Assembly (NCBI RefSeq): GCF_029690045.1
Contig: NZ_CP121464.1
Span: 682,001-746,000, forward strand
Source: Janthinobacterium rivuli
GTDB taxonomy: Bacteria; Pseudomonadota; Gammaproteobacteria; Burkholderiales; Burkholderiaceae_D
Direction: 5' to 3'
Length of the DNA stretch: 64,000 nucleotides
Part shown: in pieces, positions 2,436 to 49,090 of the stretch
Layout: each line of letters opens with the position of its first letter
Position numbering within the stretch: position 1 is the first letter of the stretch
Made by a program: the position numbers and the translations under genes
Notes under the pieces: model-generated
What the model saw: only the letters and a program-made list of their open reading frames with translations
Told to the model about the DNA's origin: nothing
The model's database searches: none

Positions 2436-4463
2436 ATGAAAGAAATCTACCTCGACAGCAATGCCACCACTTGCGTGCTGCCCGCCGCCGTTGCCGCCGC
2501 CCGGCAAGCGATGGAGCAGGGCTATGGCAATCCCAGCAGCACCCACGCGACGGGATTGCAGGCCAAGGCCATGATGGATGGTGTGCGCCGGCGCGCCAGC
2601 GGCTTGCTGGGCGTGGGCGACGGCCGCCTGATGTTCAACAGCGGCGCCACCGAAGGCATCCAGACGGCCGTGCTGTCGGCCCTGTGCGCGCTGCGTGAAC
2701 GGCGCGCTGCGGGCAAGCGCATCGGCAGCCTGCTGCTGTATGGCGCGACCGAGCACAAGGCCGTGCCGGAAAGCCTGGCGCACTGGAACCGCCTGTTGGG
2801 CCTGGGCCTGGAAGTGCGCAAGCTGCCCGTCGATGCGCAGGGACGCCACGATCTGCAGGCGCTCGATGCGCTGATCGGCGACGCCGCCATGCTGTGCACG
2901 ATGGCGGCGAATAATGAAACGGGCGTCGTCAGCGATTTGTCCGCCATCGCCCGGCTGCTGCAGGAGCGCGGCGCGGATGCCTACTGGATGGTCGATTGCG
3001 TGCAGGCGCTGGGCAAGCTGAAACTGAACCTGGCTGCCACGCGCATCGATTACGCGCCGTTTTCCGGCCACAAGCTGTATGCGCCCAAGGGCATCGGCAT
3101 GCTGTATGTGCGCGCCGGCGCGCCGTTTACGCCCTTGATGATGGGCGGCGGCCAGGAAGCGGGCTTGCGCTCGGGCACGGAAAACATGGCCGGCATCGCC
3201 GCGCTGGGCGCCGTGCTGGCCGCGCTCGACGATGGCAAGACCTTCCGCAGCCACGCCGACCTGGCCGCGTTCCGCGAGCAGCTGGTGGCCAGCCTGGAAC
3301 GCGCTTTCCCCGGCATCGTGTTCAATATGCCGTTCGACTTGTCGTTGTCGACGACGCTCAATTTTTCCGTACCGGGCCTGTCCTCGAAAGAATTGCTGGA
3401 CCTGTTCGACGCGGCGCGCGTGCGCGTCAGCTCGGGCAGCGCCTGTTCCGCCGCCAAAGCGCTCCCCAGTTATGTTCTGGAAGCGATGCATGTGCCGCAA
3501 TGGCGCGCCAGCTCGGCCATCCGTTTGTCGTTCGGCCCTCTGATTGACGCGGCGACCATTACCGCCGCGTGCGCGCGCATCGAGCGCTGTGGTGAAGCGC
3601 TGCGCAGCAGCTGTTTGCTGCCGTCGGCGCTGGCGCCATCGCCGCAGGATGGCGTGATTCAGCTCAGCGTCGATGGCCAGTGCACGTGGCTGCTCAGCGA
3701 CGCTGCCAGCGCCAGTTGCGTCGTCATCGACCCCGTCGCCGCACTCGTGCCGCGCCTGGCCGCCTTCATCCGCTGCCAGCACCTGGCCTTGCGCGCCATC
3801 GTGCACACGACGGCGCCAGCCGACCATGGCGTGGCGCGCCTGGCCTTGCTGCAGGAACTCGAGATCGAACAAGTCGGTCACGTCGATATCGATGGTGAGC
3901 TGGCACTGGGCCAGCAGCGTTTGCGCCGCATCGAATGCGGTGATAACCATGTGTATCTGCTGGAGCAGCGCTTCGCCTTCATCGGCACCCTGGCGCCCGA
4001 GGCCTTGACGCCCTTGCTGGATGCGGCGCTGCTGACGCCAGACACCGTGCTGTGCGCGTCAGGCGACGACGGCAGTATTTGCGGCACCGTGCACAGCGTG
4101 CAGGACGGTAGCGTGCCGTCCGCCGAACTCCAGTTCGATGCGGCCGCCTTGCCCGCCTTTCTGCGCCAGCATCCCGACGCCATCCTCGTCGACGTACGCG
4201 AAGCGTATGAACACGCGGCGTGCGCCGGCACGGTATTCGAGGGTTGCGAGGTGCGCAGCGTACCGCTGAGCCGCCTGGCGGGACAGGTGGCCGCATGGCT
4301 GCAGCAACCGCAGCGCCCGCTGGTCTTTTTCTGCCGCAGCGGCAACCGCAGCGCGCGCGCCAGCGCCTGTCTGCGCCGCCTCGGTCATGGCGCCGCATGG
4401 CAACTGAACGGCGGCATGGCGATGGCGGATGCGACGCGCCACCCGCTGGCCATCGCTGCCTGA
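2436..4463 (+). CDS. Fusion: cysteine desulfurase-like (class V aminotransferase) + degenerate metallo-beta-lactamase-like + rhodanese
   Basis: 675 residues, far longer than a normal NifS/IscS (about 400). Residues 1-390 are a NifS-like PLP domain: SNATT near the N-terminus, TMAANNETG, PLP lysine K213 in SGHKLYAPKG, and the persulfide-forming cysteine C337 in SSGSACSAA. Residues about 405-560 look like a metallo-beta-lactamase fold of the persulfide dioxygenase type with metal ligands mostly lost (HTTAPADH where THxHxDH is expected); this assignment is tentative. Residues about 575-670 are a rhodanese domain with active-site C633 in FFCRSGNRSA. The likely role is mobilising sulfur from cysteine and passing persulfide sulfur onward; the substrate is unknown. 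Divergent from an Lrp-type regulator. Confidence 0.85.
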   Translation: MKEIYLDSNATTCVLPAAVAAARQAMEQGYGNPSSTHATGLQAKAMMDGVRRRASGLLGVGDGRLMFNSGATEGIQTAVLSALCALRERRAAGKRIGSLLLYGATEHKAVPESLAHWNRLLGLGLEVRKLPVDAQGRHDLQALDALIGDAAMLCTMAANNETGVVSDLSAIARLLQERGADAYWMVDCVQALGKLKLNLAATRIDYAPFSGHKLYAPKGIGMLYVRAGAPFTPLMMGGGQEAGLRSGTENMAGIAALGAVLAALDDGKTFRSHADLAAFREQLVASLERAFPGIVFNMPFDLSLSTTLNFSVPGLSSKELLDLFDAARVRVSSGSACSAAKALPSYVLEAMHVPQWRASSAIRLSFGPLIDAATITAACARIERCGEALRSSCLLPSALAPSPQDGVIQLSVDGQCTWLLSDAASASCVVIDPVAALVPRLAAFIRCQHLALRAIVHTTAPADHGVARLALLQELEIEQVGHVDIDGELALGQQRLRRIECGDNHVYLLEQRFAFIGTLAPEALTPLLDAALLTPDTVLCASGDDGSICGTVHSVQDGSVPSAELQFDAAALPAFLRQHPDAILVDVREAYEHAACAGTVFEGCEVRSVPLSRLAGQVAAWLQQPQRPLVFFCRSGNRSARASACLRRLGHGAAWQLNGGMAMADATRHPLAIAA

Positions 4464-4793: not shown

Positions 4794-7700
4794 TTGAAAG
4801 AGTACACAGCAGTTGTCACGCAGCAGATCAAGGAACAGATTTCCAAAGTTAAAGAAATCTTCCGCGACCACTCCCTTGCACCGGACACCTTCGACGCCGC
4901 GCGCGACGATGCCTTGCCCCTGCGTTCCGAATTATTCAGCGCCATGCAGATGGCCGCCCACGGCAAGCACGTGGCCGCCGGCCATGCGGTAGGGCGGCAT
5001 CACGGCCGCGACCGCTTGCTGGCGCGCCTGGCCGACAATGCGGCCCTCATCACGGCCACCGTCAACGAGCTGACGGCGACCGTCAAAAGCGGACGCCAGG
5101 TCACGCCCGCCTCGGAATGGCTGCTCGATAATTTCTATCTGATCGAAGAGCAGATCCGCACCACGCGGCGCCACTTGCCGAAGAACTACAGCAAGGAGTT
5201 GCCACGGCTGAGCTCCGGTGCGGACGCGGGCTGTCCGCGCGTGTATAAAATTGCGCTGGAAATCATCTCGCACGGCGATGGCAGGGTCGACCTGGAAAAC
5301 CTGTGCCACTTCGTCGAGGCTTACCAGGACGTGGCCACTCTGACCCTGGGCGAGCTGTGGGCCGTGCCCATCATGCTGCGCCTGGCCCTGATCGAAAACC
5401 TGCGCCGCGTCGCCGTGCGCGTGGCCGACGACCGCATGCAGCGCGACCTGGCCAACACCTGGGCCGACCAGATGACGGAGATCGCCGAGCGCAATCCCAG
5501 CGGCTTGATCCTGCTGGTGGCCGACATGGCCCGCTCGAATCCACCGATGACCAGCGCTTTCGTGGCCGAATTGTCGCGCCGCCTGCAGGGACAAAGTTCC
5601 TCGCTGACCCTGGCGCTGTCGTGGCTGACGCACAAGCTGGCCGAGTCGGGCCTCACCATCGAGCAGCAGATCCAGTCCGAGATCGGGCAGCAGGCGGCCG
5701 ACCAGGTGTCGATCGCCAACAGCATCGGCAGCCTGCGTTTTCTCGGCACCATGGATTGGCAGGAATTCGTCGAGACCATGAGCGTGGTCGAGCAAACCTT
5801 GCGCCTGGACCCGGCCGGCACCTATGGCTTGATGGATTTCGCCACGCGCGACAGCTACCGCCACGCCATCGAACGCATCGCCAAGCGCAGCGCGCGCAGC
5901 GAAGTGGAGGTGGCCGAGATGGTGGTGCAACTGGCGCACACGCACGGCAACGGCAATGACGCGCGCCGCGGCCATATCGGTTTTTACCTGGTGGGCCGCG
6001 GCGTGCTGGTGCTGGAAAAGCAGGCCGGCGCCAGGCTGCCTTTCATCGAGGCGCTGCAGCATACGGCGCGCGCCGCGCCGCTGGCCGTCTACCTGGGCGC
6101 CATCTGCTTCCTGAGCCTGGCGACGAGCGCCTTGCTGCTCGAGCGCGCCGTGCGCCATGGCGTGCAGGGCTGGCCCCTGGCGGCGCTGGGCGCGCTGGCG
6201 CTGCTGGGCAGCAGCCAGCTGTCTGTCGCCGTGGTGAACTGGCTGGCGACCCTGATGACGTCGCCGCATCCGCTGCCGCGCATGGATTACCAGGCCGGCA
6301 TTCCGTCTGATGCGCGCGGCATCGTCGTCGTGCCGACCCTGATCTACAGCCAGCAGAACGTGGCGGCCCTGTGCGAGGCGCTGGAAGTGCGCTATCTCGC
6401 CAACCGCGACCCGAACCTGCGTTTCTGCCTGCTGACGGACTTCGTCGACGCCGAGGCGCAAACGATGCCCGGCGACGAAGCCCTGCTGCGCCAGGCGCAG
6501 GAGACCATCCGCGCCCTGAACGAGAAGTACCGCGTGGAGGGCGTCGAGTTCAAGGAAAACGGCGACCCGGCCGACCCCGAGGAGCTGGGCCATGTGGGGC
6601 CGTTCCTGCTGCTGCACCGTCCGCGCCTGTGGAATTCGCAGCAGAATGCGTGGATGGGGCAGGAGCGCAAGCGCGGCAAATTGTCCGACCTGCACGCGTT
6701 TTTGCGCGGTGGCGCGCGCGACAAATTCTCGCTGGTGGAAGGCGAGTTGCGCGGCCTGCGCACGATCAAATACGTGATCACGCTCGACACGGATACGCAG
6801 CTGCCGCGCGACGCGGCGCGCGAATTCATCGCCACCATGATGCACCCGCTGAACCGCCCCGTGCTCGACGCGGCCGGCACGCGCGTGGTGGCCGGCTACG
6901 GCATCCTGCAGCCGCGCGTGGCCGTGGCGCTGCCCAGCGCGAATGCCTCGCGCTACGAGCTGCTGTGCGGCGGCGAACCGGGCATCGACCCGTACACGCG
7001 CACCGTCTCCGACCTGTACCAGGACGTGTTTTATGAAGGCTCGTTCATCGGCAAGGGTATCTATGATCTCGACATGTTCGAGCGCGTGCTGGGCCAGCGC
7101 CTGCCCGACAATAAAATCCTCAGCCACGATCTGCTGGAAGGCTGTTATTTGCGCGCAGGCCTCTTGAGCGACTCGCAGCTGTACGAGGAATATCCGGCCC
7201 GCTACGACGCCGACGTGAGCCGCCGCCAGCGCTGGATCCGCGGCGACTGGCAGCTGGTCGGCTGGCTGCTGGGCCGGGTGCCGGGCCGCGCCGGCAAGCG
7301 CGAACGCAATCCCTTGTCGATGCTGTCGCGCTGGAAGCTGTTCGACAACCTGCGCCGCAGCGTCGTCGCGCCCGCCACTACTGTATCGCTGCTGCTGGTA
7401 TGGGGCTTTTTGCCGCACGTGGCCTTCTGGAGCGCGGCCGTGCTGGCCATCATCTTCCTGCCGCCCGTCTTTTCGGCCCTGTACGATTTGCTGCGCAAAC
7501 CGCGCGACACCTTGTGGCGCCAGCACCTGGCCGCCTTCGAGCGGCGCTGCGGCGTGCAGTTTTCGCACGCCATGCTGACCCTCGTCTTCCTGCCGTACGA
7601 AGCCTGGATCAGCCTCGACGCCATCGTGCGCACCCTGTGGCGCCTGGGCGTATCGCACAAGCATTTGCTCGACTGGCGCGCCTCGAACCTGCATGTGTCG

Positions 7701-10700
7701 TCAGGTTCGCAGGCCGACTGCTGGCGCGCCATGTGGTGCTCGCCCGCGCTGGCGCTGGCCACCTTCGGCGCCTTGCTCCACTGGCGCCCCGAGGCCTTGC
7801 CGGCCGCCGCCGTGGTGCTGCTCTTGTGGCTGGCCGCACCCGCCATCGCCTGGTGGATCAGCCGCCCCATCGAACGGGCCGTGGCGCGTTTGTCGGCCGA
7901 GCAGGGACGTTTTTTGCATGGCGTGGCGCGCAAGACCTGGGCGTATTTCGATACCTTCGTCGGGCCGGACGACCACTGGCTACCGCCCGATAACATGCAG
8001 GAGCATCCGAACCTGGTGGTGGCGCACCGCACCTCGCCGACGAATATCGGCCTGGCGCTGCTGGCCAACCTGACGGCCTACGATTTCGGCTATCTGACCC
8101 TGGGCCAGCTGATCGAGCGCAGCCGCGCCACCCTGCACAGCATGGGCGAGCTGGAACGCTTCCAGGGCCATTTCTATAACTGGTACGACACGCAAACGCT
8201 CAAGGCGCTGCAGCCGATGTATATCTCGACGGTTGACAGCGGCAACCTGGCCGGCCATCTGCTGACCTTGCAGCCGGGCCTGGTGGAACTGTACGACACT
8301 CCCATCATCGGCGCGCAGATCGTGCAGGGCATCCGCACGACGGCGCAGGTGCTGCAGGAATTCATCGCCGCCGAAGGCGAAGGCAAGGCCATGCGCGAGA
8401 GCATGACCCTGCTGCAGGCGCAGGCCGCGCCCGCCAGCCTGGCCGAATGGCATGCCTATCTCGCCGCCGCGAATGGCGCGGCTGACGCGCTGCTGTCGCT
8501 GACCTTGCAAAGCGAGGATGGCGACCTGTCCATGTGGGCGGGAGCCTTGGCGCGCCAGTGCCGCGCGGCGCTGGCCGAGTTGCTGCAACTGGCGCCGTGG
8601 GCGGCGCACGCGGGCGTCGATGCGGCGCTGATGCGCGTGCCGACCCTGCGCGAACTGGCCAACCTGGAAGCGCCGGAAGGCACGCCGCCCGAACTGGCGG
8701 TGCTGCTGGCGCAGGGCCGTGAACAGGCGGGCCGCCACATGCGCGACATCGCCCACGCGGCGGGCCAGGCGCGCGACTTCGCGCAGATCGAATACGGCTT
8801 CCTGTACAACCCGGCGACAAAACTGCTGGCCATCGGCTACAACGTCAGCGAACGGCGCCTGGACCCCAGCTACTACGACTTATTGGCTTCCGAAGTGCGC
8901 CTGGCCAGCTTCATCGCCATCGCCCAGGGCCAGCTGCCGCAGGAGCACTGGTTCGCCCTGGGCCGCCAGCTGTGCATGGTGGCAGGCCAGCCCGTGCTGC
9001 TGTCATGGAGCGGCTCGATGTTCGAGTACCTGATGCCGCTCCTGGTGATGCCGAACTACCCGAATACCCTGCTCGACCAGACCTACCACTCCGTCATCGA
9101 GGCGCAGATCGATTACGGGCGCCAGCGCGATGTGCCGTGGGGGATTTCCGAGTCCGGCTACAACACGGTCGACGCCAGTTTGAACTATCAATACCGCGCC
9201 TTTGGCGTGCCGGGGCTGGGCCTGAAGCGGGGCCTGGCCGACGACCTGGTGGTGGCGCCATATGCCAGCATGATGGGCCTGATGGTGCAGCCGGAAGCGT
9301 CATGCCAGAACCTGCAGCGCATGCAGGCGGCCGGCTACATGGGCCGCTACGGCTTTTTTGAAGCCATCGATTTCACCACGGCGCGCCTGCCGCGCGGGCA
9401 GGGCAGTGCCATCATCCGCTCCTTCATGGTGCACCACCAGGGCATGGGTTTTCTGGCCCTCAGCTATTTGCTGCACGACCGCCCGATGCAGCGCCGTTTC
9501 GAGTCCGATCCGCTGCTGCAATCGGCCTTGCTGGTGCTGCAGGAACGCACGCCGCAGGCCGGCGCGTTTTACTCGAACACGGCCGAACTGGCGGTGCTGC
9601 GCAGCGGCGCGCCCGAGCAGGCCATGCCGATGCGCATCCTTACGCAAGCCAACAGCGCCGTGCCGGAAACGCAGCTGCTGTCGAATGGCCGCTACCACGT
9701 CATGGTGAGCAATGCGGGAGGCAGCTACAGCCGCTGGAAAGACCTGTCCGTGACGCGCTGGCGCGAAGACAGCACGCGTGATAACTGGGGCAATTTCTGC
9801 TACCTGCGCGACCTCGATGATGGTGAAGTCTGGTCCACCATGTACCAGCCCACCCTGGCTGAACCGAAGAAATACGAAGTGATTTTTTCGGAAGGGCGGG
9901 CCGAGTTCCGCCGCGCCGACCATGGCCTGGACCTGTACACGGAAATCGTCGTCTCGCCCGAGGACGACATTGAAATCCGCCGTACGCGCATCAGCAATAA
10001 TTCGAACCGCCAGCGGCGCATCGAGATCACCAGCTTTGCCGAAGTGGTGATGGCGCCGGCGGCGGCCGATGCGGCCCATCCCGCGTTCAGCAAGCTGTTC
10101 GTGCAGACGGAAATCCTCGCGCATGAAAAGGCAATTTTATGCACGCGCCGACCCCGCTCGAAAGAGGAGCAGATGCCGTGGCTGCTGCATGTGATGACCG
10201 TGCACGATATCGAGCGCTATGACGTATCGTTCGAGACGGACCGCGCGCGCTTCATCGGCCGCGGCAACACGGCGCAGCTGCCGCAGGCGCTGCAGGAAAG
10301 TGGCCCGCTCAGTGGCGGCCACGGCTCCGTGCTCGACCCCATCGTGGCCATCCGCTACGTCATCACGCTGGAACCCGACCAGGCCGTCACTGTCGACAGC
10401 GTGACCGGCATGGCGGAGCAGCGCGAGGCGGCGCTGCACCTGATCGACAAATACCAGGACCGCCATCTGGCCGACCGTGTGTTCGAGCTGGCCTGGACGC
10501 ACAGCCAGGTGGTGCTGCGCCAGTTGAATGCCAGCGAAGCGGACGCGCAGCTGTATGCGCGCCTGGCCAACGCCGTGATCTATCCGAATGCGGCCTTGCG
10601 CGCCGAGGCCAGCATCCTGATCAAGAACCAGCGCGGCCAGTCCGGCCTGTGGGCGTATGCCATTTCCGGCGACTTGCCCATCGTGCTGCTGCAGATACGC

Positions 10701-14716: not shown

Positions 14717-17110
14717 ATGCCGGTCCTTGTCCGCTTGCTTGCCTTGTGTTTGACCCTGTTTGCTCCCTTGTCCGGCCTGTGCGCCGCGGCGCCCTTCGAC
14801 GACAAGTTCCGCCAGCTGGAAGAACTGCTGCCCACGCCGAACAACTACCGCACGGCGTCCGGCGCGCCGGGCCACGCCTACTGGCAGCAGCGCGCCGATT
14901 ACGTGATTCGCGCCACGCTCGATGAGGAACGCCGCGCCATCACGGCCAGCGAACAGATCACCTACCACAACCGCTCGCCCGACAGCCTCGCGTATCTGTG
15001 GCTGCAGCTGGACCAGAATGGCTTGCGCCAGGATGCCGACCAGCGCCGCGTATTGAGCGCCCCATCGCGCCAGGCCTGGCTCAGTGGCAGCGAGGACGAA
15101 GCGCTGAAGTTCGAGGACTTGCGCGCCCTCCATGCGGGCCGAGAATTTGACGGCGGCTTCAAGCTCACCGCCGTGAAGGCGGCCAGCGGCAAGCCGCTGC
15201 CGCATGTCGTCAACCAGACCATGCTGCGCATCGATTTGCCGGCGGCGCTGGCGCCCGGCCAGAGCATCACGTTCAATATCGACTGGTCGTATCAGATCAA
15301 TGACCAGAAGGTGCTGGTCGAGCGCTCTGGCTACGAATATTTTGAAGACGACAAGAACACGATCTTCCAGATCGCGCAGTGGTTCCCGCGCATGGCCGCC
15401 TACTACGACGCCGTCGGCTGGCAGCACAAGCAGTTCCTCGGCTCCGGTGAATTCACCCTGGAGTTTGGCGACTACGAGCTGTATCTGACGGTGCCGGGCG
15501 ATCACGTGGTGGCTGCCACGGGAGAGCTGCAAAATCCTGCTAGCGTGCTGAGCGCGGCGCAGCGCGAGCGCCTGGCGCGGGCGAAAAACAGCAACACGCC
15601 GCTGCTGGTGATCACGCCGCAGGAAGCGCTGGCGGCGGAGAAGGGCCGCGCGGCGGGCATGAAAACCTGGCACTTCAAGGCGGCCAATGTGCGCGACGTG
15701 GCGTGGGCGTCGAGCCGCAAGTTCATCTGGGATGCGCAGGGCCTGGACAGCGGCGGCAAGCGCGTGATGGCCATGTCGTATTACCCGAACGAGGGCAACC
15801 CGCTGTGGCAGCAGTACAGCACGCGCGCCGTCGTGCACGCGATCGAGCAGTACAACAAGTACAGTTTCGACTATCCGTATCCAAACGCGATCTCCGTCAA
15901 CGGCGCCGTGGGCGGCATGGAGTATCCGATGATTGCGTTCAATGGCGGGCGCCCCGTGAAGGACAAGAAGACGGGGGAGCTCACGTACTCGAAGACGGCC
16001 AAATATGACCTGATCGGCGTGATCATCCACGAAGTGGGCCACAATTATTTCCCCATGATCGTCAACTCGGACGAGCGCCAGTGGACGTGGATGGACGAGG
16101 GCCTCAACTCCTTCCTGCAGTACCTGGCCGAGCAGGCGTGGGAAGAGCATTTCCCGTCGTGGAATGGCGAGCCGCGCAAGATCGTCGACTACATGCGCAG
16201 CCAGAACCAGGTGCCCATCATGACCAATTCCGAGTCCCTGCTGCAGTTTACGGCGAACGCCTACGACAAGCCGGCCACGGCGCTCAACATCCTGCGCGAG
16301 ACCATCCTCGGGCGCGAACTATTCGACTTCGCCTTCAAGCAGTATGCCTTGCGCTGGAAGTTCAAGCGCCCGACGCCGGCCGACTTTTTCCGCACCATGG
16401 AAGACGCTTCCGGTACGGACCTGGACTGGTTCTGGCGCGGCTGGTTCTATACCACCGACGCGGTCGACATCAGCATCGACGGCATCAGCGAATATGGCGT
16501 GAGCACGAAGAACCCGGAAGTCGAGAAGGCGTGGAAGAAGGCGCAGAAGGCCGCGCAGCCGATCTCGATTTCGGACCAGCGCAACAAGACGCTGCCGAAG
16601 AAGGTCGATGCCGATCCCGCGCTGAAGGATTTTTATAACCGGCACGATGAATTCACGGTCACCAACAAGGACCGCAACAGCTATGCGGAAGAGCAGGAAA
16701 CGCTGGAGCCGTGGGAGCGCAAGCTGCTGGAACAGCGCAACATGGGCAAGCATTTGTACCTGGTCGACTTTTCGAATATCGGCGGCCTGGTGATGCCCTT
16801 GATCCTGGAAATCGAACTGAAAAGCGGCAAGAAGATTATCGAGCGCGTGCCGGCCGAAGTGTGGCGCTATGCGCCGCACAAGATCAGCAAGGTGATCGTC
16901 ACGGACGAACCGATGGTGGGCCTGGTGCAGGACCCGTACTGGGAGACGGCCGACATCGACACCAGCAACAATGCGTGGCCGAGAAAAATCACGCCGTCGC
17001 GCCTGGAACTGTTCAAGCAGGACCGCGACAAGAACAACCTGATGAAGGATTTTAATACGCCGCTCAAGGCGCCCGACGCCAAGGCCGAGGCCAAGCCGGA
17101 AGCAAAATAG
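14717..17110 (+). CDS. Exported M1 family zinc metallopeptidase
   Basis: 797 residues from the ATG at 14717, preceded by GGAA 7 bases upstream and followed by a clear signal peptide (LVRLLALCLTLFAPLSGLCA). An M1 gluzincin catalytic site is present: HEVGH at 438-442 and the third zinc ligand E461 in MDEGLNSF, 18 residues after the second histidine. A GGMEYP substrate-binding motif lies upstream. The C-terminal Lys/Glu-rich tail ends in Ala/Lys/Glu repeats. Probably a periplasmic or outer-surface aminopeptidase. In-frame codons upstream (14618, 14705) lack an SD. An intrinsic terminator follows, so it is likely its own transcript although next to a second M1 gene. Confidence 0.9.
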   Translation: MPVLVRLLALCLTLFAPLSGLCAAAPFDDKFRQLEELLPTPNNYRTASGAPGHAYWQQRADYVIRATLDEERRAITASEQITYHNRSPDSLAYLWLQLDQNGLRQDADQRRVLSAPSRQAWLSGSEDEALKFEDLRALHAGREFDGGFKLTAVKAASGKPLPHVVNQTMLRIDLPAALAPGQSITFNIDWSYQINDQKVLVERSGYEYFEDDKNTIFQIAQWFPRMAAYYDAVGWQHKQFLGSGEFTLEFGDYELYLTVPGDHVVAATGELQNPASVLSAAQRERLARAKNSNTPLLVITPQEALAAEKGRAAGMKTWHFKAANVRDVAWASSRKFIWDAQGLDSGGKRVMAMSYYPNEGNPLWQQYSTRAVVHAIEQYNKYSFDYPYPNAISVNGAVGGMEYPMIAFNGGRPVKDKKTGELTYSKTAKYDLIGVIIHEVGHNYFPMIVNSDERQWTWMDEGLNSFLQYLAEQAWEEHFPSWNGEPRKIVDYMRSQNQVPIMTNSESLLQFTANAYDKPATALNILRETILGRELFDFAFKQYALRWKFKRPTPADFFRTMEDASGTDLDWFWRGWFYTTDAVDISIDGISEYGVSTKNPEVEKAWKKAQKAAQPISISDQRNKTLPKKVDADPALKDFYNRHDEFTVTNKDRNSYAEEQETLEPWERKLLEQRNMGKHLYLVDFSNIGGLVMPLILEIELKSGKKIIERVPAEVWRYAPHKISKVIVTDEPMVGLVQDPYWETADIDTSNNAWPRKITPSRLELFKQDRDKNNLMKDFNTPLKAPDAKAEAKPEAK

Positions 17111-42010: not shown

Positions 42011-42051
42011 TTGTTTTTAAGCAGGCCGGCGGGGTGTCCCGCTGCCTGATG

Positions 42052-42095
42052 ATGGGGCCGGGCCTGCTCACGATCGTGAGTGCGCCCGGCCCCAT
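42052..42095 (+). terminator. Long hairpin after rpsJ
   Basis: Perfect 12-bp arms ATGGGGCCGGGC (42052-42063) and GCCCGGCCCCAT (42084-42095). The 20-base loop contains a second palindrome CTCACGATCGTGAG. No T run follows, so it may be a factor-dependent or processing signal; it marks the end of the rpsJ transcript unit. Confidence 0.6.
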
Positions 42096-42164
42096 TGCTA
42101 TTGGTGCCAGCGCATCTCTGCAAAATCGCTTTACAGTGCCGCAACTGGACGATAAAGTTGCCGC

Positions 42165-43010
42165 ATGCTTAATGCCCTCGATACCCACCTGTTAAATGCA
42201 GCTCCCCGTGAGCGCCTGCGCGGCTGGCCGCGTTTCCTGACCGAATTTTTGTATTTCGGCATCAAGGAGGCGAGGTCGTGCCTGTTCGTGGGGCTGTTTT
42301 TCGCTGCCGTGTTCCTGGTGCCGCGCGCTGGCCTGTTCGGCCTGCCGCGCTATGACGTGCTGCTGCTGGTGGCGCTGGCGATCCAGGGCGCGATGCTGTG
42401 GAGCGGGCTGGAAACGTGGGATGAATTGAAAGCCATCTGCCTGTTTCATGCGGTCGGCTTCGCGCTGGAGGTGTTCAAGGTGTCGGGGACGATCCAGTCG
42501 TGGAGCTATCCCGACTTCGCCTACACCAAGGTGTTCGGCGTGCCCCTGTTTTCCGGCTTCATGTATGCGGCCGTCGGCAGCTACATCATCCAGACCTGGC
42601 GCCTGCTCGACATGCGGATCCGCCACCATCCGCCATACTGGATGGCGGTGCTGATCGCGCTGCTGATTTACGCCAACTTCTTTACTCACCACTACATCGG
42701 CGACTATCGCTGGTACCTGGCCGCCTGCGCGCTGGGCCTGTACGCGCGCACCAGCGTGGTGTTCCGTCCGCTCGACCGCGACCGCAGCATGCCCTTGCTG
42801 CTCGGTTTCGTGCTGGTCGGCTTCTTCATCTGGCTGGCTGAAAACATCAGCACCTTCTGGGGCGTATGGCGCTATCCGAACCAGCTTGGCGCCTGGTCGG
42901 TCGTGCATGTCAGCAAATGGAGCTCGTGGTCGCTGCTGGTGGTGATGACGTTCACCATCGTGGCCCACCTCAAGCACATCAAGGCCAGCATCCACGTCGC
43001 CCAGCCCTAG
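42165..43010 (+). CDS. DUF817 family integral membrane protein
   Basis: 281 residues with about eight hydrophobic helices (for example CLFVGLFFAAVFLVP, YDVLLLVALAIQGAMLW, WMAVLIALLIYANF, LLLGFVLVGFFIWLA, SWSLLVVMTFTIVAHL) and family-like segments FLYFGIKEARSC, HYIGDYRWYL and LAENISTFWGVWRYP. Function unknown. It is the first gene in the block that separates rpsJ from rplC; no good SD is seen before the ATG. Confidence 0.85.
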   Translation: MLNALDTHLLNAAPRERLRGWPRFLTEFLYFGIKEARSCLFVGLFFAAVFLVPRAGLFGLPRYDVLLLVALAIQGAMLWSGLETWDELKAICLFHAVGFALEVFKVSGTIQSWSYPDFAYTKVFGVPLFSGFMYAAVGSYIIQTWRLLDMRIRHHPPYWMAVLIALLIYANFFTHHYIGDYRWYLAACALGLYARTSVVFRPLDRDRSMPLLLGFVLVGFFIWLAENISTFWGVWRYPNQLGAWSVVHVSKWSSWSLLVVMTFTIVAHLKHIKASIHVAQP

Positions 43011-43029
43011 GCCGGGCACCGGAAGTCTC

Positions 43030-43578
43030 TTATTGCAGGCTGGCCGCGACGGCTTCAAAGCGCGCGCCCAGTGCCGCCTGCGGACCGCCTTGCAGCTGCT
43101 TCGCGTACTGGCGCAGCACTTCCGCCGAATACGTGCGCGAGGCGGGCGACAGCTTCGGCAGCAGCGGCAGCACGCGTTCCAGATAGCCTGTGCCTTCCTG
43201 CCATTTGCCTTGCGCTGCCAGGGCCGACGCCAGTTCCACCATGCGCCGGCCGACGCGCGCGTCGCTGCGCGGCTGCGCCGCTTCTTCCGTGGCCAGCGCT
43301 TGCCGGTACAACTGCTCCGCTTCCGCATTCTTGCCCTGCAAACGCTTGATGCGGCCCAGGTTGTACTGGCGCTGCGAGAGGATGTCCGCGCTGGCCCCGG
43401 CTTGCTCGGCGCTGCGCAGCGCCTGTACGCAAGCCAGTTCCGCTTCGCCAAACTGGCCTTTGAGTTCGGCCGCGTTGCAGGCGTCGTGCTGTTCATTGGA
43501 GGTGGTGAGCGTCGCTGGCGCCGCGCAGGCGGCCAGCAGGCTGACGGCGCATAGCAGGCTGATGGTATGGGTCTTCAT
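43030..43578 (-). CDS. Lipoprotein with tetratricopeptide-like repeats
   Basis: 182 residues. The signal ends in a lipobox, SLLAAC (Cys about residue 18). The mature part carries helical repeats of TPR type (AELACVQALRSAEQAG, RQYNLGRIKRLQGKNAEAEQLYRQAL, GKWQEGTGYLERVLPLL). Probably an envelope scaffold; partner unknown. It is divergent from the creBCD genes, so it may share their promoter region. Confidence 0.75.
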   Translation of the reverse strand: MKTHTISLLCAVSLLAACAAPATLTTSNEQHDACNAAELKGQFGEAELACVQALRSAEQAGASADILSQRQYNLGRIKRLQGKNAEAEQLYRQALATEEAAQPRSDARVGRRMVELASALAAQGKWQEGTGYLERVLPLLPKLSPASRTYSAEVLRQYAKQLQGGPQAALGARFEAVAASLQ

Positions 43579-43743
43579 AGTCTCCTCGGACGGGTGTCAA
43601 ACACGGTGTATCGGTGGAGTCATGCCGTAATAAATATACTATAAGTTTTTTGGGATGGGCGGCTTTTTGCCAGCGCACGCGATTGACGCCGCTCGCGTGC
43701 TTCGGGGATACTCCGGGCTTGTCCATTAATGCGTGCCGCCGCC

Positions 43744-44469
43744 ATGTCCAAGACTGTCCTGATCGTGGAAGATGAACAGGCGATTGCCGACAGCATCGCC
43801 TATGCCTTGCGCACGGACGGCTTTACGCCGCGCCATGTGATGTTGGGCGAGCACGCCCTGGCCGCGCTGCGCCCAACGCCCGGCGAAGCCGCGCAGATGC
43901 CCGTTCTGGTAGTGCTTGACGTGGGCTTGCCCGACATGAGCGGGCTGGAAGTGTGCCGCCGGCTGCGCCAGTTTTCCGAGGTGCCGGTGATCTTCCTGAC
44001 GGCTCGCAGCGACGAGATCGACCGTATCGTCGGCCTGGAAATCGGCGCCGACGATTACGTCACGAAGCCGTTTTCGCCACGCGAACTAGTGGCGCGCATC
44101 CGCGTCATCCTGCGCCGCGCGGGTGTCGCGCAAGCTCCCCGCGAGACTGGCATGACGATAGCCGCGCCTGCCGCCGCGCCGGCGCGCTTCGAGTTGCGCG
44201 CGCTGGAGGCGAAAGTGCTCTTTCACGGCCAGCCGCTGGACCTGACCCGCTATGAATACCTGTTGCTGAAAACCCTGCTCGAGCATCCGGGCCACGTGCT
44301 GTCGCGCGCGCAGCTGATGGAGCGCGTGTGGAGCGGGGCGCCCGATACGCTTGAGCGCACAGTCGACGCACACGTCAAATCGCTGCGCGCCAAGCTGCGT
44401 GCCGTCGATGCGCAGGTCGATCCCATCCAGACCCACCGTGGCCTCGGCTACAGCCTGGCCGGCGCATGA
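43744..44469 (+). CDS. creB: Two-component response regulator CreB
   Basis: 241 residues, OmpR/PhoB type. Receiver domain with EDE near the N-terminus, phosphoacceptor D59 (VVLDVGLPDMSGLEV) and K (VTKPFSPREL); winged-helix DNA-binding domain with RYEYLLLKTLLEHPGHVLSRAQLMERVW and RTVDAHVKSLRAKL. Start is either ATG 43744 or 43729. Followed with overlap by the kinase and then creD, the canonical creBCD order. No clear TTCAC-N6-TTCAC Cre box was found upstream. Confidence 0.9.
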   Translation: MSKTVLIVEDEQAIADSIAYALRTDGFTPRHVMLGEHALAALRPTPGEAAQMPVLVVLDVGLPDMSGLEVCRRLRQFSEVPVIFLTARSDEIDRIVGLEIGADDYVTKPFSPRELVARIRVILRRAGVAQAPRETGMTIAAPAAAPARFELRALEAKVLFHGQPLDLTRYEYLLLKTLLEHPGHVLSRAQLMERVWSGAPDTLERTVDAHVKSLRAKLRAVDAQVDPIQTHRGLGYSLAGA

Positions 44470-45887
44470 AGATCGGCCTGCGCATCCTGCTCGGCTACTT
44501 CCTGATCGTCGGGCTGGCCGCATGGTTCCTGCTGAATGTCTTCATGGAGCAGGTCAAGCCCGGCGTGCGCTCGACCCTGGAAGACACCCTGGTCGATACC
44601 TCGCAACTGCTGGCCAGCCTGGTGGCGCCCGACCTGAAGGCGGGCACGCTGGCGCAGTCGCCCGTGGCCGAACGCATGCAGGATTACGCGCGCCATGGCG
44701 TGGACGTGAATATCAATGGCGTGCGCAAGCGCACGCTCGATTACCGCATCACCATCACGGACCGGCACGGCATCGTGCTGTTCGATTCCAGCGGGCGCGA
44801 CGTGGGGCGCGACTATTCGCGCTGGAATGACGTGTACCTCACCTTGCAGGGCAAGTATGGCGCGCGCAGCACGCGCAGCCGGCCCGACGACGAGATGTCG
44901 ACCGTCATGCATGTGGCCGCGCCGATTCGCGACGGCAATGAGGTGATCGGCGTGCTGACGGTGGCCAAGCCGAACGCCAGCGTGCAAGCGTTTGTCGAGC
45001 GCAGCCAGCGCAAGATATTGCAGCGCGGCGCCATCCTGTTGCTGCTGTCGCTGCTGATCGGCCTGGCATTTGCCTGGTGGCTGCACCATGCGCTGGGCAA
45101 GCTGATGCATTACATCGGCGACGTGGAAGCGGGGCGCAAGGTGGCGCTGCCGGCGCTGGGAAAGAACGAGATCGGCACTTTGGGGCGGGCGCTCGAGGCG
45201 ATGCGCACGCGCCTGGAAGGCAAGGAATACGTGGAGCAGCTGATGCACACCCTGGCGCATGAATTGAAAAGCCCGATCGCCGCCATCCAGGCCTCGGCCG
45301 AGCTGCTGCAGGAAGACATGCCGCCGGCCGAGCGCCGCCAGTTCCTTGCCAGCATCCTGGAGCAGAATGCGCGCCAGCGGCAACTGATCGACAAGCTGCT
45401 GGCCCTCGTGCGCGTGGAAAAACAGCAACGGCTGGATCACCCTGAGCGCATCGCGCTGGCGCCCCTGCTGGCGCAAGTGGCGCAGGACGCGGCCGCCACC
45501 CTGGCGGCGCGCGGCGTGCGCCTGCAGTTGCAGGCGGAAGAGGGCAGTGTGGCCGGGGACGCCTTGCTGCTGCGCCAGGCGCTGGGCAATTTGCTCGACA
45601 ACGCGGCCGGCTTTGCGCCACCGGGCAGTTGCATCGACCTGACGGCGCGGCGCCAGGGCAGTCAGGTGGAAATTGCCGTGCGCGACCGTGGCGCGGGCAT
45701 CCCCGCGTATGCGCTGGAACGCGTCTTCGAGCGTTTCTATTCCCTGCCGCGCCCGAGCGCCGGCAAGAGCACGGGCCTGGGCTTGCCCTTCGTGCGCGAG
45801 GTGGCCTCGCTGCATGGCGGCACGGTCGAAGTGCTCAATCATGCGCAGGGCGGCGCCTGCGCGCGCCTGTGCCTGCCACTAGCCTAG
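44466..45887 (+). CDS. creC: Two-component sensor histidine kinase CreC
   Basis: 473 residues: a membrane helix (about 5-24), a periplasmic sensor domain (about 30-180), a second helix (about 183-203, GAILLLLSLLIGLAFAWWL), HAMP, HisKA with phosphoacceptor in HTLAHELKSPIAAIQ (H about 264), and a HATPase domain with LGNLLDNAAGF, RDRGAGIP and STGLGLPFVREV. Its start overlaps creB by 4 bases. CreC responds to metabolic or envelope state in other proteobacteria; the signal here is unknown. Confidence 0.93.
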   Translation: MKIGLRILLGYFLIVGLAAWFLLNVFMEQVKPGVRSTLEDTLVDTSQLLASLVAPDLKAGTLAQSPVAERMQDYARHGVDVNINGVRKRTLDYRITITDRHGIVLFDSSGRDVGRDYSRWNDVYLTLQGKYGARSTRSRPDDEMSTVMHVAAPIRDGNEVIGVLTVAKPNASVQAFVERSQRKILQRGAILLLLSLLIGLAFAWWLHHALGKLMHYIGDVEAGRKVALPALGKNEIGTLGRALEAMRTRLEGKEYVEQLMHTLAHELKSPIAAIQASAELLQEDMPPAERRQFLASILEQNARQRQLIDKLLALVRVEKQQRLDHPERIALAPLLAQVAQDAAATLAARGVRLQLQAEEGSVAGDALLLRQALGNLLDNAAGFAPPGSCIDLTARRQGSQVEIAVRDRGAGIPAYALERVFERFYSLPRPSAGKSTGLGLPFVREVASLHGGTVEVLNHAQGGACARLCLPLA

Positions 45888-45973
45888 CGCACTTTATTTT
45901 CCCGCTTCACACGGACTGCATCGTCAGCGCATACAGCTTTTTTACACTGGCGCCCTTACTTCAAGGATGCGCC

Positions 45974-47365
45974 ATGCAAAAAACTCTGTTAGTCAAAGCC
46001 TTGATCGTGTTCGGCCTGATGCTGCTGATCGGCCTGCCTTTGCTGATGATTCAGGAAACGATCAAGGAGCGGATGGAATTCCGCCAGGAAGCCGTCAACA
46101 GCATCGCCGCCGATTCGGTGCGCGAACAAACCATCATCGGTCCCATCCTCGTGATCCCGTATGTGGAGCAATATGACGAGCGGGTCGAGATCGCCGTCGA
46201 CAAGGAGCAGAAAGGCAGCGTGCCGGCGCAGACGCAGGTGCAGCGCCGCGTCATGCAGCGCCGCTTGCTGGTGTACCCGAACCTCTTGCTGCAGGAAGGC
46301 ACCATCGAGACCGACCGCCGCTACCGTGGCATCCACCAGGTGCTGGTGTACAGCGGCCAGCATGCGTTCAAGGGCGACTTCACGGTGCCCAGTCTTGAGC
46401 AGTTGCCGCGCAAGACGCCGGACGCGCGCGTGACCCTGGGCGAGCCGTTTGTTGCCTTGTCCATCGAGGACGTGCGCGGCATCCGCAACATCCCGAAAAT
46501 CGACTGGGGCGGGCGCCAGATCGAATTCGAACAGGGCACCGACCTGTTTGCCTTCCGCAGCGGCCTGCATGCACCCCTGGGCGCCATGCCGCTGGCGCAA
46601 GCGCAGCAGGTGAAATTCAGTTTTGACCTGGGACTGGACGGCATCGAACGCCAGCATTTCGTGCCGGTGGCGAAAAATAGCCAGATCAGCATCAAGTCGA
46701 ACTGGCCCCATCCGCAGTTTGGCGGGCGCTTCCTGCCGTCGCCGAAACACCGCCAGATCAATGCCGAGGGCTTTCAGGTCGAATGGAATATCTCGTCGCT
46801 GGCCAGCAATGCGCAAACGCAGCTGAGCACGATCGAGGGCGAGTTCAAGGTGCCCGACAGCGCACCGCTGGGCCAGGTGGACCGTTTCAGCGTCGGCTTC
46901 ATCGAGCCGATCAATGTGTATTCGCAGTCGGACCGGGCCACCAAGTATGGCTTGCTGTTTGTGGCGTTGACGTTTGCCGCCTTCTTCATCTTCGAGATCC
47001 TGAAGAGTCTGCCGATCCATCCCGTGCAATATCTGCTGGTGGGCCTGTCGCTGGTGATCTTCTTCCTGCTGCTGGTGGGCCTGGCCGAGCATATCGCTTT
47101 CCTTGCCGCTTACCTGATCGCCAGCGCCGCCTGTATCGCGCTGACCAGTTTTTACCTGGCGCATGTATTGCACAACGCCTGGCGCGGCATCGGCTTCGGC
47201 GTGGCGCTGACCATGCTGTATGGCGCCCTGTACGGATTGCTGAACTCGGAAAACAATGCGCTGGTGATGGGCAGCATCCTGCTGTTCGCCGTCCTGGCCG
47301 CCATCATGGTGGCGACGCGCAAGGTTGACTGGTATCAGATTGGCAAAGGAGCGCCGCAGGAATAG
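45974..47365 (+). CDS. creD: Inner membrane protein CreD
   Basis: 463 residues, the usual CreD length. An N-terminal helix (LVKALIVFGLMLLIGLPLLMI), a large periplasmic beta-rich domain with QTIIGPILVIPYVE and YRGIHQVLVYSGQHAFKGDF, and a C-terminal bundle of about five helices (YGLLFVALTFAAFFIFEIL and following). The ATG at 45974 has AAGGA upstream; the frame is open earlier but that part is not CreD. Its expression is the classical output of CreBC and it affects envelope and beta-lactam responses. Confidence 0.95.
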   Translation: MQKTLLVKALIVFGLMLLIGLPLLMIQETIKERMEFRQEAVNSIAADSVREQTIIGPILVIPYVEQYDERVEIAVDKEQKGSVPAQTQVQRRVMQRRLLVYPNLLLQEGTIETDRRYRGIHQVLVYSGQHAFKGDFTVPSLEQLPRKTPDARVTLGEPFVALSIEDVRGIRNIPKIDWGGRQIEFEQGTDLFAFRSGLHAPLGAMPLAQAQQVKFSFDLGLDGIERQHFVPVAKNSQISIKSNWPHPQFGGRFLPSPKHRQINAEGFQVEWNISSLASNAQTQLSTIEGEFKVPDSAPLGQVDRFSVGFIEPINVYSQSDRATKYGLLFVALTFAAFFIFEILKSLPIHPVQYLLVGLSLVIFFLLLVGLAEHIAFLAAYLIASAACIALTSFYLAHVLHNAWRGIGFGVALTMLYGALYGLLNSENNALVMGSILLFAVLAAIMVATRKVDWYQIGKGAPQE

Positions 47366-47399
47366 GGGCCATCCGGGCGCCATGCGCCTCCGCATTTGC

Positions 47400-47440
47400 A
47401 GCCAGCCATGACGGTGATATGTCCTGGCTGGCTTTTTATT
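47400..47440 (+). terminator. Intrinsic terminator after creD
   Basis: AGCCAGCC (47400-47407) and GGCTGGCT (47426-47433) arms followed by TTTTATTT. It separates creBCD from the small cysteine-rich genes. Confidence 0.85.
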
Positions 47441-47608
47441 TGGCCGGGAGGAACGTGGCACAATAATTGGTAGTTGGTTGGTATTGTTTACGGTATTCTA
47501 TTGGCATTGCTTTTTAGGCAATGGCGGGCGCCGTGGCGCCGGCCCGGGGCGGTGCGAGGATGGCGTGTCGTCCTGGTTGTTGTTCCATCTGATAAACGGA
47601 GATGAAAT

Positions 47609-47797
47609 ATGATCAAGAAGACGATGGCTTTCCTGTTTGCGCTGGGCCTGAGCGCCTCGTATGCATTTGCCGCCGGCGATGTCACGCAGTGCTATAGCGA
47701 GTGCGGGCAGAAGGTGGCCAATTGCCGGGCGCACCTCGGTGGCAGCCCCATCTGCGAGGACTTGTACGAGCATTGTCTGGCCAATTGCCAGAAGTAA
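47609..47797 (+). CDS. Small secreted twin-CX3C cysteine-rich peptide, copy 1
   Basis: 62 residues: a signal peptide with probable cleavage at AFA-AG (about residue 21), then a mature peptide of about 40 residues with six cysteines at 28, 32, 39, 49, 56 and 60. The pattern CX3C-x6-C-x9-C-x6-CX3C is mirror symmetric and suits a disulfide-stapled helical hairpin. The SD GGAG is 7 bases before the ATG. The next gene is a paralogue of exactly the same length. No family recognised. No convincing promoter was found in the 170 bases after the creD terminator. Confidence 0.85.
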   Translation: MIKKTMAFLFALGLSASYAFAAGDVTQCYSECGQKVANCRAHLGGSPICEDLYEHCLANCQK

Positions 47798-47864
47798 GCA
47801 CCTGCTCCCGGCAGCTTGCCTGGGTACGCTTTGATTCCTGAAAAAAACACAATTGGAGACATGC

Positions 47865-48053
47865 ATGTACAAGAAAATCGCGGTATTCCTGTTTGCCATC
47901 GGCTGCAGCGCCTCGTATGCCATGGCTGGCAATGATTGCACGCTGGAGTGCGCCATCCGGGCCAATACGTGCTCGGGCGGCATGCCCGGTTCGGCCTCGA
48001 GCCCGATTTGCGAGATGGTCTACCAGCATTGCATCGAGCAGTGCAAGGTCTGA
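47865..48053 (+). CDS. Small secreted twin-CX3C cysteine-rich peptide, copy 2
   Basis: 62 residues from the ATG at 47865, with GGAG 6 bases upstream (an in-frame TTG at 47853 is less likely). Signal cleavage probably at AMA-GN. Mature cysteines at 25, 29, 36, 49, 56 and 60 give CX3C-x6-C-x12-C-x6-CX3C, the same layout as copy 1 with a longer turn. Shared SPICE..Y.HC...C ending and similar signal peptides (SASYA) show tandem duplication. A strong hairpin follows. Function unknown. Confidence 0.85.
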   Translation: MYKKIAVFLFAIGCSASYAMAGNDCTLECAIRANTCSGGMPGSASSPICEMVYQHCIEQCKV

Positions 48054-48115
48054 GCTGAGTCGCCCTCCGCCCGGCGCCAGGCCTGATACAGGAGGGCAGG
48101 ATGGAGGAGGGCAAG

Positions 48116-48140
48116 GGGCGCGTACGCCGTGTACGCGCCC
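48116..48140 (+). terminator. Hairpin terminator after the cysteine-rich peptide pair
   Basis: Perfect 10-bp arms GGGCGCGTAC and GTACGCGCCC with loop GCCGT, followed by TTGTTGTTT. Confidence 0.8.
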
Positions 48141-48311
48141 TTGTTGTTTCCGCGGCTGCCACTGACTTGCCGCCGGTGGCGCCCGGTGCGGCAGGCCGCA
48201 TGCCGCCGTGCTTTGCTGCCGTTAAATTGCCTTGCGGCAGCGTTTTTCAGGCGCGCCGACAACTCCCGCAGGGGCGTCTTGCAACACTTTGACATACCTC
48301 GTGTTAACTTG

Positions 48312-48340
48312 TTGCGTCAAGGGTTTTTGTGCTATATACT
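48312..48340 (+). promoter_or_regulatory. Sigma-70 promoter of the rplC (remainder of S10) operon
   Basis: TTGCGT (48312-48317), 17-base spacer, TATACT (48335-48340). It shows that rplC onward can be transcribed independently of rpsJ. Confidence 0.75.
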
Positions 48341-48433
48341 AGCCGGCTTCGGTATGGATTCGTCTTTTTTGAGTCCTACGTTACTTTGTAGTTAAACAAG
48401 CCCCGCCCAATCGCAGGTGGGAATGGAGAAAAA

Positions 48434-49090
48434 ATGAGCCTAGGCCTTCTCGGTCGCAAGGTTGGTATGATGCGCATTTTCACGGATGAAGGGGATTCGA
48501 TTCCTGTCACCGTGTTGGACGTATCGAACAACCGTGTTGCGCAAATCAAAACCCCTGAAACAGATGGTTACTCCGCTGTTCAGGTCGCATTCGGTCAACG
48601 TCGCGCTTCCCGCGTGACCAAAGCTGTTGCTGGTCATCACGCTAAAGCTGGTGTTGAAGCCGGTACTCTGTTGAAAGAGTTCCGTGTCGACGCTGCCAAA
48701 GCCGCTGAACTGAAAGCTGGCGATGTTGTCGCTGCTTCCCTGTTCGAAGTCGGTCAAAAGATCGACGTGCAAGGCGTTACCATCGGTAAAGGCTATGCAG
48801 GCGTTATCAAACGTTACCACTTCGCTTCTGGCCGTGCAACGCACGGTAACTCGCGTTCGCACAACGTTCCAGGTTCCATCGGTATGGCACAAGATCCAGG
48901 TCGCGTTTTCCCTGGTAAGCGCATGACCGGTCATCTGGGTGACGTTAACCGTACGATCCAGAACCTCGTGATCGCCCGTATCGATGCCGACCGTCAGCTG
49001 TTGCTGGTCAAAGGCGCGATTCCAGGTGCGAAAAATGGCCAGGTAGTTGTCTCGCCAGCCATCAAAACCAAAGCCAAGAAGGGAGCTTAA
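48434..49090 (+). CDS. rplC: 50S ribosomal protein L3
   Basis: 218 residues. [17 protein letters not shown] at the N-terminus and [20 protein letters not shown] in the central loop that reaches toward the peptidyl transferase centre. SD GGAGAAAAA. First gene of the rplC-rpsQ block, 3 bases before rplD. Confidence 0.98.

Follow-up and report, generated by a model that had tools for sequence, protein, structure and literature searches.

The question raised by this locus is what two adjacent small genes of Janthinobacterium rivuli, a bacterium of soil and water, each encoding a short peptide with six symmetrically spaced cysteines, are for. The window (the whole stretch of 64,000 nucleotides that was analysed) carried peptide gene 1 between 47609 and 47797 and peptide gene 2 between 47865 and 48053, both on the forward strand, both with an ATG start and 62 amino acids long, and separated by a gap of 67 bp. 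In the mechanical ORF list peptide 2 was longer (66 amino acids from a TTG start at 47853); the ATG was chosen because of its Shine-Dalgarno (SD) sequence. The cysteines of peptide 1, at residues 28, 32, 39, 49, 56 and 60, gave the spacing C-x3-C-x6-C-x9-C-x6-C-x3-C, and those of peptide 2 (25, 29, 36, 49, 56 and 60) had the same layout with an x12 loop. The strict six-Cys motif occurred twice in the window and not once in 60 first-order-Markov randomisations. The sequence and its translations thus agreed with the original prediction of tandem 62-residue genes with this cysteine spacing, and an SD-like site lay ahead of both genes, as it had also proposed; it did not mention an additional cysteine of peptide 2, Cys14 within the signal. 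In both peptides an n-region with lysine, a stretch of hydrophobic residues and an A-x-A site precede the six-Cys motif. Read by eye rather than with a predictor, these features point to signal peptides, which in peptide 1 would span approximately residues 1–21 and leave a mature part of approximately 41 amino acids.

Upstream of the pair lie creB (43744–44469), creC (44466–45887) and creD (45971–47365, forward strand), which are context and, in the case of creD, fall outside the module described below. Pfam searches of this region returned a response regulator (PF00072/PF00486), a kinase (HisKA/HATPase) and CreD (PF06123, 2e-143), which bears out the creBCD assignment made originally. The terminator that had been placed between creBCD and the peptide genes was visible in the sequence: a terminator-like hairpin 3′ of creD (47400–47439, forward strand), read by eye, has arms at 47400–47408 and 47425–47433, a loop of 16 and then TTTTTATTT, a T run. 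The hairpin scan was limited to loops of 3–8 and therefore did not list it. A second terminator-like hairpin, 3′ of peptide 2 (48114–48142, forward strand, 13 pairs), came from the scan and is a consensus match only; rplC (48434–49090, forward strand) follows downstream of the pair. The S10 operon is split in the window (42011–48433), where approximately 6.4 kb between rpsJ and rplC hold a DUF817 gene, a TPR gene, creBCD and the peptide genes. A promoter-like site at 47440–47467 was at chance level only. Rfam analysis of the intergenic region gave two matches (E 0.08–0.09) that were far under the gathering scores and likewise at chance level, and an RNA gene there was rejected.

The J. rivuli genome encoded six members beyond the window pair: five in tandem near 1.17 Mb (L009, 8230–10010) and an eighth member at 3.995 Mb. 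Profile A1 (11 sequences) found relatives in 26 of 40 genus genomes and in at least 62 of 392 family genomes, in eight of 44 genera, with the best 16 candidates per genome scored; at the levels of family, order, class and phylum, the searches covered the best 10–16 candidates per genome and their counts are lower bounds. Named relatives belonged to Janthinobacterium, Massilia, Pseudoduganella, Rugamonas and Duganella. Six arrays (L043–L048) held 16, 22, 17, 23, 13 and 8 six-Cys genes respectively, the count of 17 for L045 leaving out an ORF without a signal (15880–16077) that was discarded by eye. An SD-like site was present upstream of 191 of 210 distinct peptide genes, and counting 7-mers upstream of the 210 yielded mostly GC-rich words and no clear operator.

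Searches of the Pfam and NCBIfam copies used gave these peptides no significant family match, in line with the original remark that no bacterial family was recognised. Peptides 1 and 2 had no Pfam family match at E 5, and their single NCBIfam line was CpxP at E 0.1, with 12.7 bits where the cut-off is 238; none of 58 family members had a significant match in the Pfam copy searched. A Massilia relative (P0013) carries a precomputed PF28172.1 annotation, a model that lies outside that Pfam copy. The UniRef names DUF3551 (P0026) and Kazal-like (P0029) resemble wrong transfers, the Pfam scan of the 58 members having given no significant match. A PDB sequence search with the peptides returned nothing significant, Foldseek returned nothing at E 0.001 or better, and no literature on this peptide family was found among the matches listed, in a search that was thin in subscription journals.

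Alignment of 58 mature sequences (A3) showed the six cysteines to be the only invariant residues. This alignment and A6 contain 58 of 70 stretches and omit the rest, among them L087, whose C-terminus carries additional cysteines, and the CX2C and C-x4-C forms. The x6 spacing was exact on both sides in all 196 distinct ORFs whose signal is of the F-x-F-A type, with 3–10 residues permitted, and CX2C was found at C1–C2 in 26 of 212 ORFs. Within six arrays, paralogues shared 55–70% identity in the signal and 14–20% in the non-cysteine mature residues. The pattern among orthologues was examined in 26 groups drawn from 224 distinct CDS, in which pairs are not independent. Pooled dN/dS was 0.05 in the signal, compared with 0.24 in the mature part, and the mature value was 0.61 or less in every group. 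Peptide 1 gave 0.06 (signal) and 0.13 (mature) over 10 distinct orthologous CDS, and peptide 2 gave 0.25 and 0.09 over four. The original prediction would have been abandoned for want of homologues with conserved cysteines or for a dN/dS near 1; such homologues were found in genus and family genomes, and the pooled mature value of approximately 0.24 is far below 1. The dN/dS values and the conserved pattern therefore indicate real genes. Judged by their sequences, each copy is conserved once made, and the copies are almost wholly different from one another. The family signal is generally more conserved than the mature part, which one would not usually expect of a sequence that serves export only; peptide 2 is an exception. 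In the database protein P0012 a signal of the peptide-1 type is followed by a mature part of the peptide-2 type; this chimera points to recombination between neighbouring paralogues, of which P0012 is a likely product.

AlphaFold2 (AF2) models support the antiparallel helical hairpin of the original prediction, confidently for peptide 1 and more weakly for peptide 2. The mature part of peptide 1, modelled with a 58-sequence alignment, had a pLDDT of 90.2 and helices at 2–22 and 26–40, and peptide 2 (modelled from 47919–48050) had a pLDDT of 74.6 and helices at 3–18 and 29–43. In the mature hairpin of peptide 1 (47672–47794, forward strand) the putative opposed pairs 28–60, 32–56 and 39–49 have residue sums that are all 88, and in that of peptide 2 (47928–48050, forward strand) the putative pairs 25–60, 29–56 and 36–49 all sum to 85. 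Equal sums for C1–C6, C2–C5 and C3–C4 mean that the members of each pair face each other in an antiparallel hairpin. Cysteines at i, i+4 and i+11 also fall on a single helix face (0, 40 and 20 degrees). From this geometry we infer three nested disulfides, C1–C6, C2–C5 and C3–C4; the AF2 output itself carries no disulfide connectivity, so that the bonds are deduced and not observed.

Variants of the motif were then compared with this arrangement. A selection on the signal only, blind to cysteines, gave 173 ORFs, among which 167 had the six-Cys pattern, five were without the outer pair and one had a rearranged six-Cys form. Counted after residue 19, cysteines in the same 173 ORFs numbered six (167), four (five) or ten (one), and never an odd number. 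The outer pair, C1 and C6, was jointly absent (C-x6-C-x6-C-x6-C) at three Massilia loci (L083–L085) and at L143, from another family; the inner pair, C3 and C4, was jointly absent at six loci (L106, L114–L117 and L128), which leaves the twin CX3C only. In most variants, then, cysteines that face each other are lost or gained together, which is what nested disulfides would lead one to expect and which supports the proposed ladder. A peptide from another order (L173, 1899–2113), encoded directly downstream of an anchored glutaredoxin gene, has eight cysteines spaced C-x3-C-x6-C-x3-C-x6-C-x3-C-x6-C-x3-C and is possibly a four-rung ladder. The peptides of L105, L108–L110 and L112 have the unsymmetrical spacing C-x2-C-x6-C-x7-C-x9-C-x2-C, which goes against the pairing rule; they may lie outside the ladder and represent a different family. 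The three-disulfide closure originally proposed thus has indirect support from the symmetric spacing, the placing of the cysteines on one face and the mostly opposite-pair variants.

A small protein is encoded recurrently between the array genes: its N-terminus is short and basic, a single hydrophobic helix comes next, and an EGNYAAYF-type linker leads to a glutaredoxin domain with CxxC. All four proteins searched matched PF00462 at E 4e-11 to 2e-15 (43–57 bits against a gathering score of 22.9), which together with the CxxC assigns this partner to the glutaredoxin family, and both CxxC cysteines were invariant in 17 sequences (A4). Three proteins scored 59–66 bits against the YruB-type model TIGR02196, under its cut-off of 88.6. 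At the sequence level, the N-terminal anchor and the conserved linker set the partner apart as a separate subfamily. Basic residues ahead of the helix point to a glutaredoxin domain on the periplasmic side of the membrane.

Presence of the anchored glutaredoxin followed that of the peptides. Within the genus, whose genomes are not phylogenetically independent, it was found in all 26 peptide-bearing genomes and in none of the 14 peptide-less genomes. In the family, 69 of the 392 genomes scanned had a strong match (at least 100 bits), and a peptide was present in 66 of these. Outside the genus, 30 of 36 family genomes with peptide matches had a strong glutaredoxin match; the other six had peptide matches that were marginal (E 2e-4 to 0.0075) and no strong glutaredoxin. 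Thirteen family genomes had a strong glutaredoxin and no A1 peptide match: a pattern peptide lay beside it in ten (in G322 the unsymmetrical form only), and none did in the other three (L104, L107 and L113). A profile scan of named genomes gave 27 glutaredoxin loci, 24 with six-Cys peptides and three with the four-Cys form.

The two genes were also close together. A pattern peptide lay within 1.5 kb of the glutaredoxin gene at 26 of 27 named loci (the peptide of L078 being approximately 3 kb off), at 35 of 39 fetched family loci and at all three strong matches in other Burkholderiales families; the named and family sets share at least six genomes. The four family loci without one were L104, L107, L113 and L118, the last from a genome with a peptide elsewhere. 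The 'six-var', 'inner-lost' and 'outer-lost' patterns were defined after seeing the sequences; with the six-Cys pattern alone, the corresponding counts were 23 of 27 named, 21 of 39 family and two of three outside the family. At loci of weaker glutaredoxin matches the same patterns found a peptide in 0 of 26 and 0 of 27 cases, the eight-Cys peptide of L173 falling outside the patterns and being uncounted. The nearest peptide was on the glutaredoxin strand at 30 of 35 family loci. The remaining five (L105, L108, L109, L110 and L112), arranged head-to-head with the peptide on the other strand, were exactly those with the unsymmetrical form. When 27 loci were compared, using coarse ORF calls, the glutaredoxin recurred in 25, and no other gene in more than five. 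CreBC regulation or a creBCD-linked role was not favoured, because the module adjoins other genes in other genera and only the glutaredoxin exceeds five of the 27 loci.

Outside Burkholderiales the best glutaredoxin match scored 100.7 bits, against 144–165 for the three strong ones from other families of that order, with slightly different profiles. A plasmid-borne element was rejected, as only five of 72,556 plasmid records matched the glutaredoxin, covering at most 62% of it; the best-scoring of these (NZ_CP154629.1, Acetoanaerobium) aligned with the glutaredoxin domain only. M48 metallopeptidase genes lie near the module at three loci in two families (L043, 14060–14812; L143, 235–1170; and the L121 relative; Pfam assignments for L043 and L143), and these may encode a processing enzyme or be a coincidence. 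At L124 the module has an AhpC/TSA-family gene upstream (3527–4096), and downstream of it (6777–8117) lies T6SS_VasE, a gene of type VI secretion.

In glutaredoxin-bearing genomes, peptides also occurred far from the glutaredoxin, as with the window pair and in G010. The J. rivuli glutaredoxin is encoded at the second locus, near 1.17 Mb, which is 0.44 Mb away from the window pair. The peptide-1 gene was just upstream of rplC at all 11 orthologous loci compared and the peptide-2 gene was present at three of the 11, the window's own locus included in both counts. The rpsJ–rplC stretch hosts the peptide family in Janthinobacterium, in the Rugamonas array L047 and, with a glutaredoxin, in Duganella L137. 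L047, with three glutaredoxin genes, is likewise just upstream of rplC. The gene order of L137 is tuf, rpsJ, glutaredoxin, peptide and DUF817 (tuf and rpsJ identified by sequence), its DUF817 gene having 85% identity to the window gene at 42165–43010. As the rpsJ–rplC site is shared with glutaredoxin-bearing loci, the window pair is read as a module without a local glutaredoxin. This gene was probably lost from the site or never present there, and the pair probably depends on the copy at the other locus.

The reading that we favour, to which we give a probability of approximately 0.5, is that the peptides are exported hairpins with a disulfide ladder, that a periplasmic glutaredoxin is dedicated to servicing them, and that their likeliest role is to bind and inhibit an extracytoplasmic target. 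The Sec system would export the peptides and their signal would be removed, as their sequences imply, after which a general periplasmic oxidase would oxidise the cysteines. The inner-membrane glutaredoxin, held by its one N-terminal helix and facing the periplasm, would most likely reduce and reshuffle mispaired disulfides until the ladder closes. The folded product would be a short antiparallel helical hairpin locked by nested C1–C6, C2–C5 and C3–C4 bonds. Such a ladder would be a fixed scaffold that leaves the remaining mature surface free to vary, so that paralogues could multiply in arrays, each with a binding face of its own. Once finished, a peptide would most likely bind and inhibit a protease, a protein of a competitor or predator, or an envelope component. 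The conserved orthologues, with a mature dN/dS of at most 0.61, argue against a fast arms race. That the system is a bacterial counterpart of eukaryotic disulfide-peptide arsenals, with a ladder of two to four rungs, variable faces, arrays of up to 23 genes, Sec export and a dedicated periplasmic glutaredoxin as catalyst, together forming a self-contained two-component module found mainly in Burkholderiales, is a broader proposal that we hold at slightly under even odds.

Part of this overlaps with a second explanation, which we regard as possible and rather unlikely: that the peptides are secreted antagonists, bacteriocin-like or antifungal-like, forming a hairpin arsenal like alpha-hairpinins or glycocins. 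Such bacteria share their habitat with fungi and competitors. The helical hairpin model with its symmetric cysteines fits an antagonist, as do arrays with near-random surfaces, and thioredoxin-like enzymes are encoded in glycocin clusters too, according to the available part of PMC12457901. Against it, the compared neighbourhoods, again with coarse ORF calls, contained no recurring immunity-like gene, dedicated exporter or glycosyltransferase, the peptides are acidic on average and every orthologue is under purifying selection. The mean mature net charge was -2.15 and none of 196 members reached +3 or more, which disfavours a cationic membrane-lytic peptide.

The isomerase role that the favoured reading gives to the glutaredoxin is drawn from gene pairing and the PF00462 match, and the enzyme may equally well keep cysteines reduced. 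The peptides would then be periplasmic thiol ligands, binding Cu(I) or another soft metal or acting as a redox buffer, with six cysteines on two helix faces held reduced by the anchored glutaredoxin, a proposal that we consider doubtful. Copper storage proteins (Csp), with which such ligands would be compared, are four-helix bundles lined with Cys that bind Cu(I). The tight gene pairing could also mean that peptide and glutaredoxin are redox partners, the peptide being a small dithiol/disulfide carrier that passes electrons to oxidised envelope proteins, and the CX2C variants at C1–C2 and the ahpC-type gene upstream at L124 would suit such a carrier; a single active pair would be enough for it, where the ladder would have two to four rungs, and it would leave unexplained why as many as 23 divergent copies accompany two glutaredoxin genes at L046, so that this is improbable. 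Chance or decaying ORFs, suggested by the short length and the lack of a significant family model, can be given next to no credence and are ruled out by the randomised windows and a dN/dS far below 1, as well as by the frequent SD-like sites and the spread over eight genera.

Returning to the exported hairpin with its glutaredoxin, several known systems resemble parts of it. Mitochondrial small Tim (twin CX3C) and CHCH proteins have CX3C pairs, form an antiparallel hairpin in the oxidising intermembrane space and are partnered by Mia40. The four-Cys variants at L106, L114–L117 and L128 are formally twin CX3C; however, the hairpin peptides are far smaller, their partner is a glutaredoxin and no such Pfam match was found among the 58 members. 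Neurotoxin B-IV is a nemertean worm toxin with a disulfide-braced helical hairpin. Its family, Toxin_13 (PF07822), was matched by four of the 58 members, with a best E of 0.1, which is not significant and under the gathering score. The transferrin receptor-binding cystine-dense peptide (PDB 6oke) has 16% identity and shares the arrangement only, Foldseek having returned nothing at the threshold given above.

Plant alpha-hairpinins are short helix-loop-helix peptides with two CXXXC motifs and multi-module genes, as far as the available part of PMC7191063 describes them, and have four cysteines (available part of PMC11591084). The AF2 models of both window peptides are helix-loop-helix, that of peptide 2 at the lower pLDDT. 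They differ in having six cysteines with an added inner pair, bacterial signals and one hairpin per gene; alpha-hairpinins are defined by exactly two disulfides from two CX3C motifs, and twin CX3C alone was found only at L106, L114–L117 and L128. Alpha-hairpinins are also plant peptides, with no partner oxidoreductase mentioned in the accessible text of PMC7191063.

The core pairs of glycocins have C-x6-C spacing. The glycocins sublancin, glycocin F and thermoglycocin are bacterial, with two helices, nested disulfides and thioredoxin-like enzymes in the cluster; a glycosyltransferase is encoded in their clusters too, as is a bifunctional protease-transporter, and in thermoglycocin the third disulfide forms a C-terminal loop (all from the part of PMC12457901 that was accessible). 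The hairpin peptides differ in having a Sec-type signal, a third rung inside the ladder and a glutaredoxin instead. No glycosyltransferase with a peptidase-containing transporter was found at the 27 loci compared, with an ORF caller that drops short or poorly scoring ORFs. The peptide spacing and the paired cysteine changes would fit two nested disulfides between two helices, as in glycocins; a comparison of the peptide profile with sublancin (2mij) gave E 0.33, which is not significant. We propose to define the family by a signal followed by C-x(2-4)-C-x6-C-x(4-20)-C-x6-C-x(2-4)-C, a description that covers both window peptides with their signals judged from sequence.

The fold class of cystine-braced helical hairpins is already known; the apparent novelty lies in this family, in its arrays and in the glutaredoxin with which it is paired. 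The analysis describes a family of bacterial miniproteins that are genetically encoded and very probably braced by disulfides; they combine a fixed scaffold with a free surface and occur many per genome. The two-, three- and four-rung ladders of the family would be a ready scaffold for peptide engineering. The analysis also brings two questions within reach of experiment: can a glutaredoxin of the periplasm be devoted to the folding, or to the reduction, of one family of peptides, and what leads environmental bacteria to retain so many of them?
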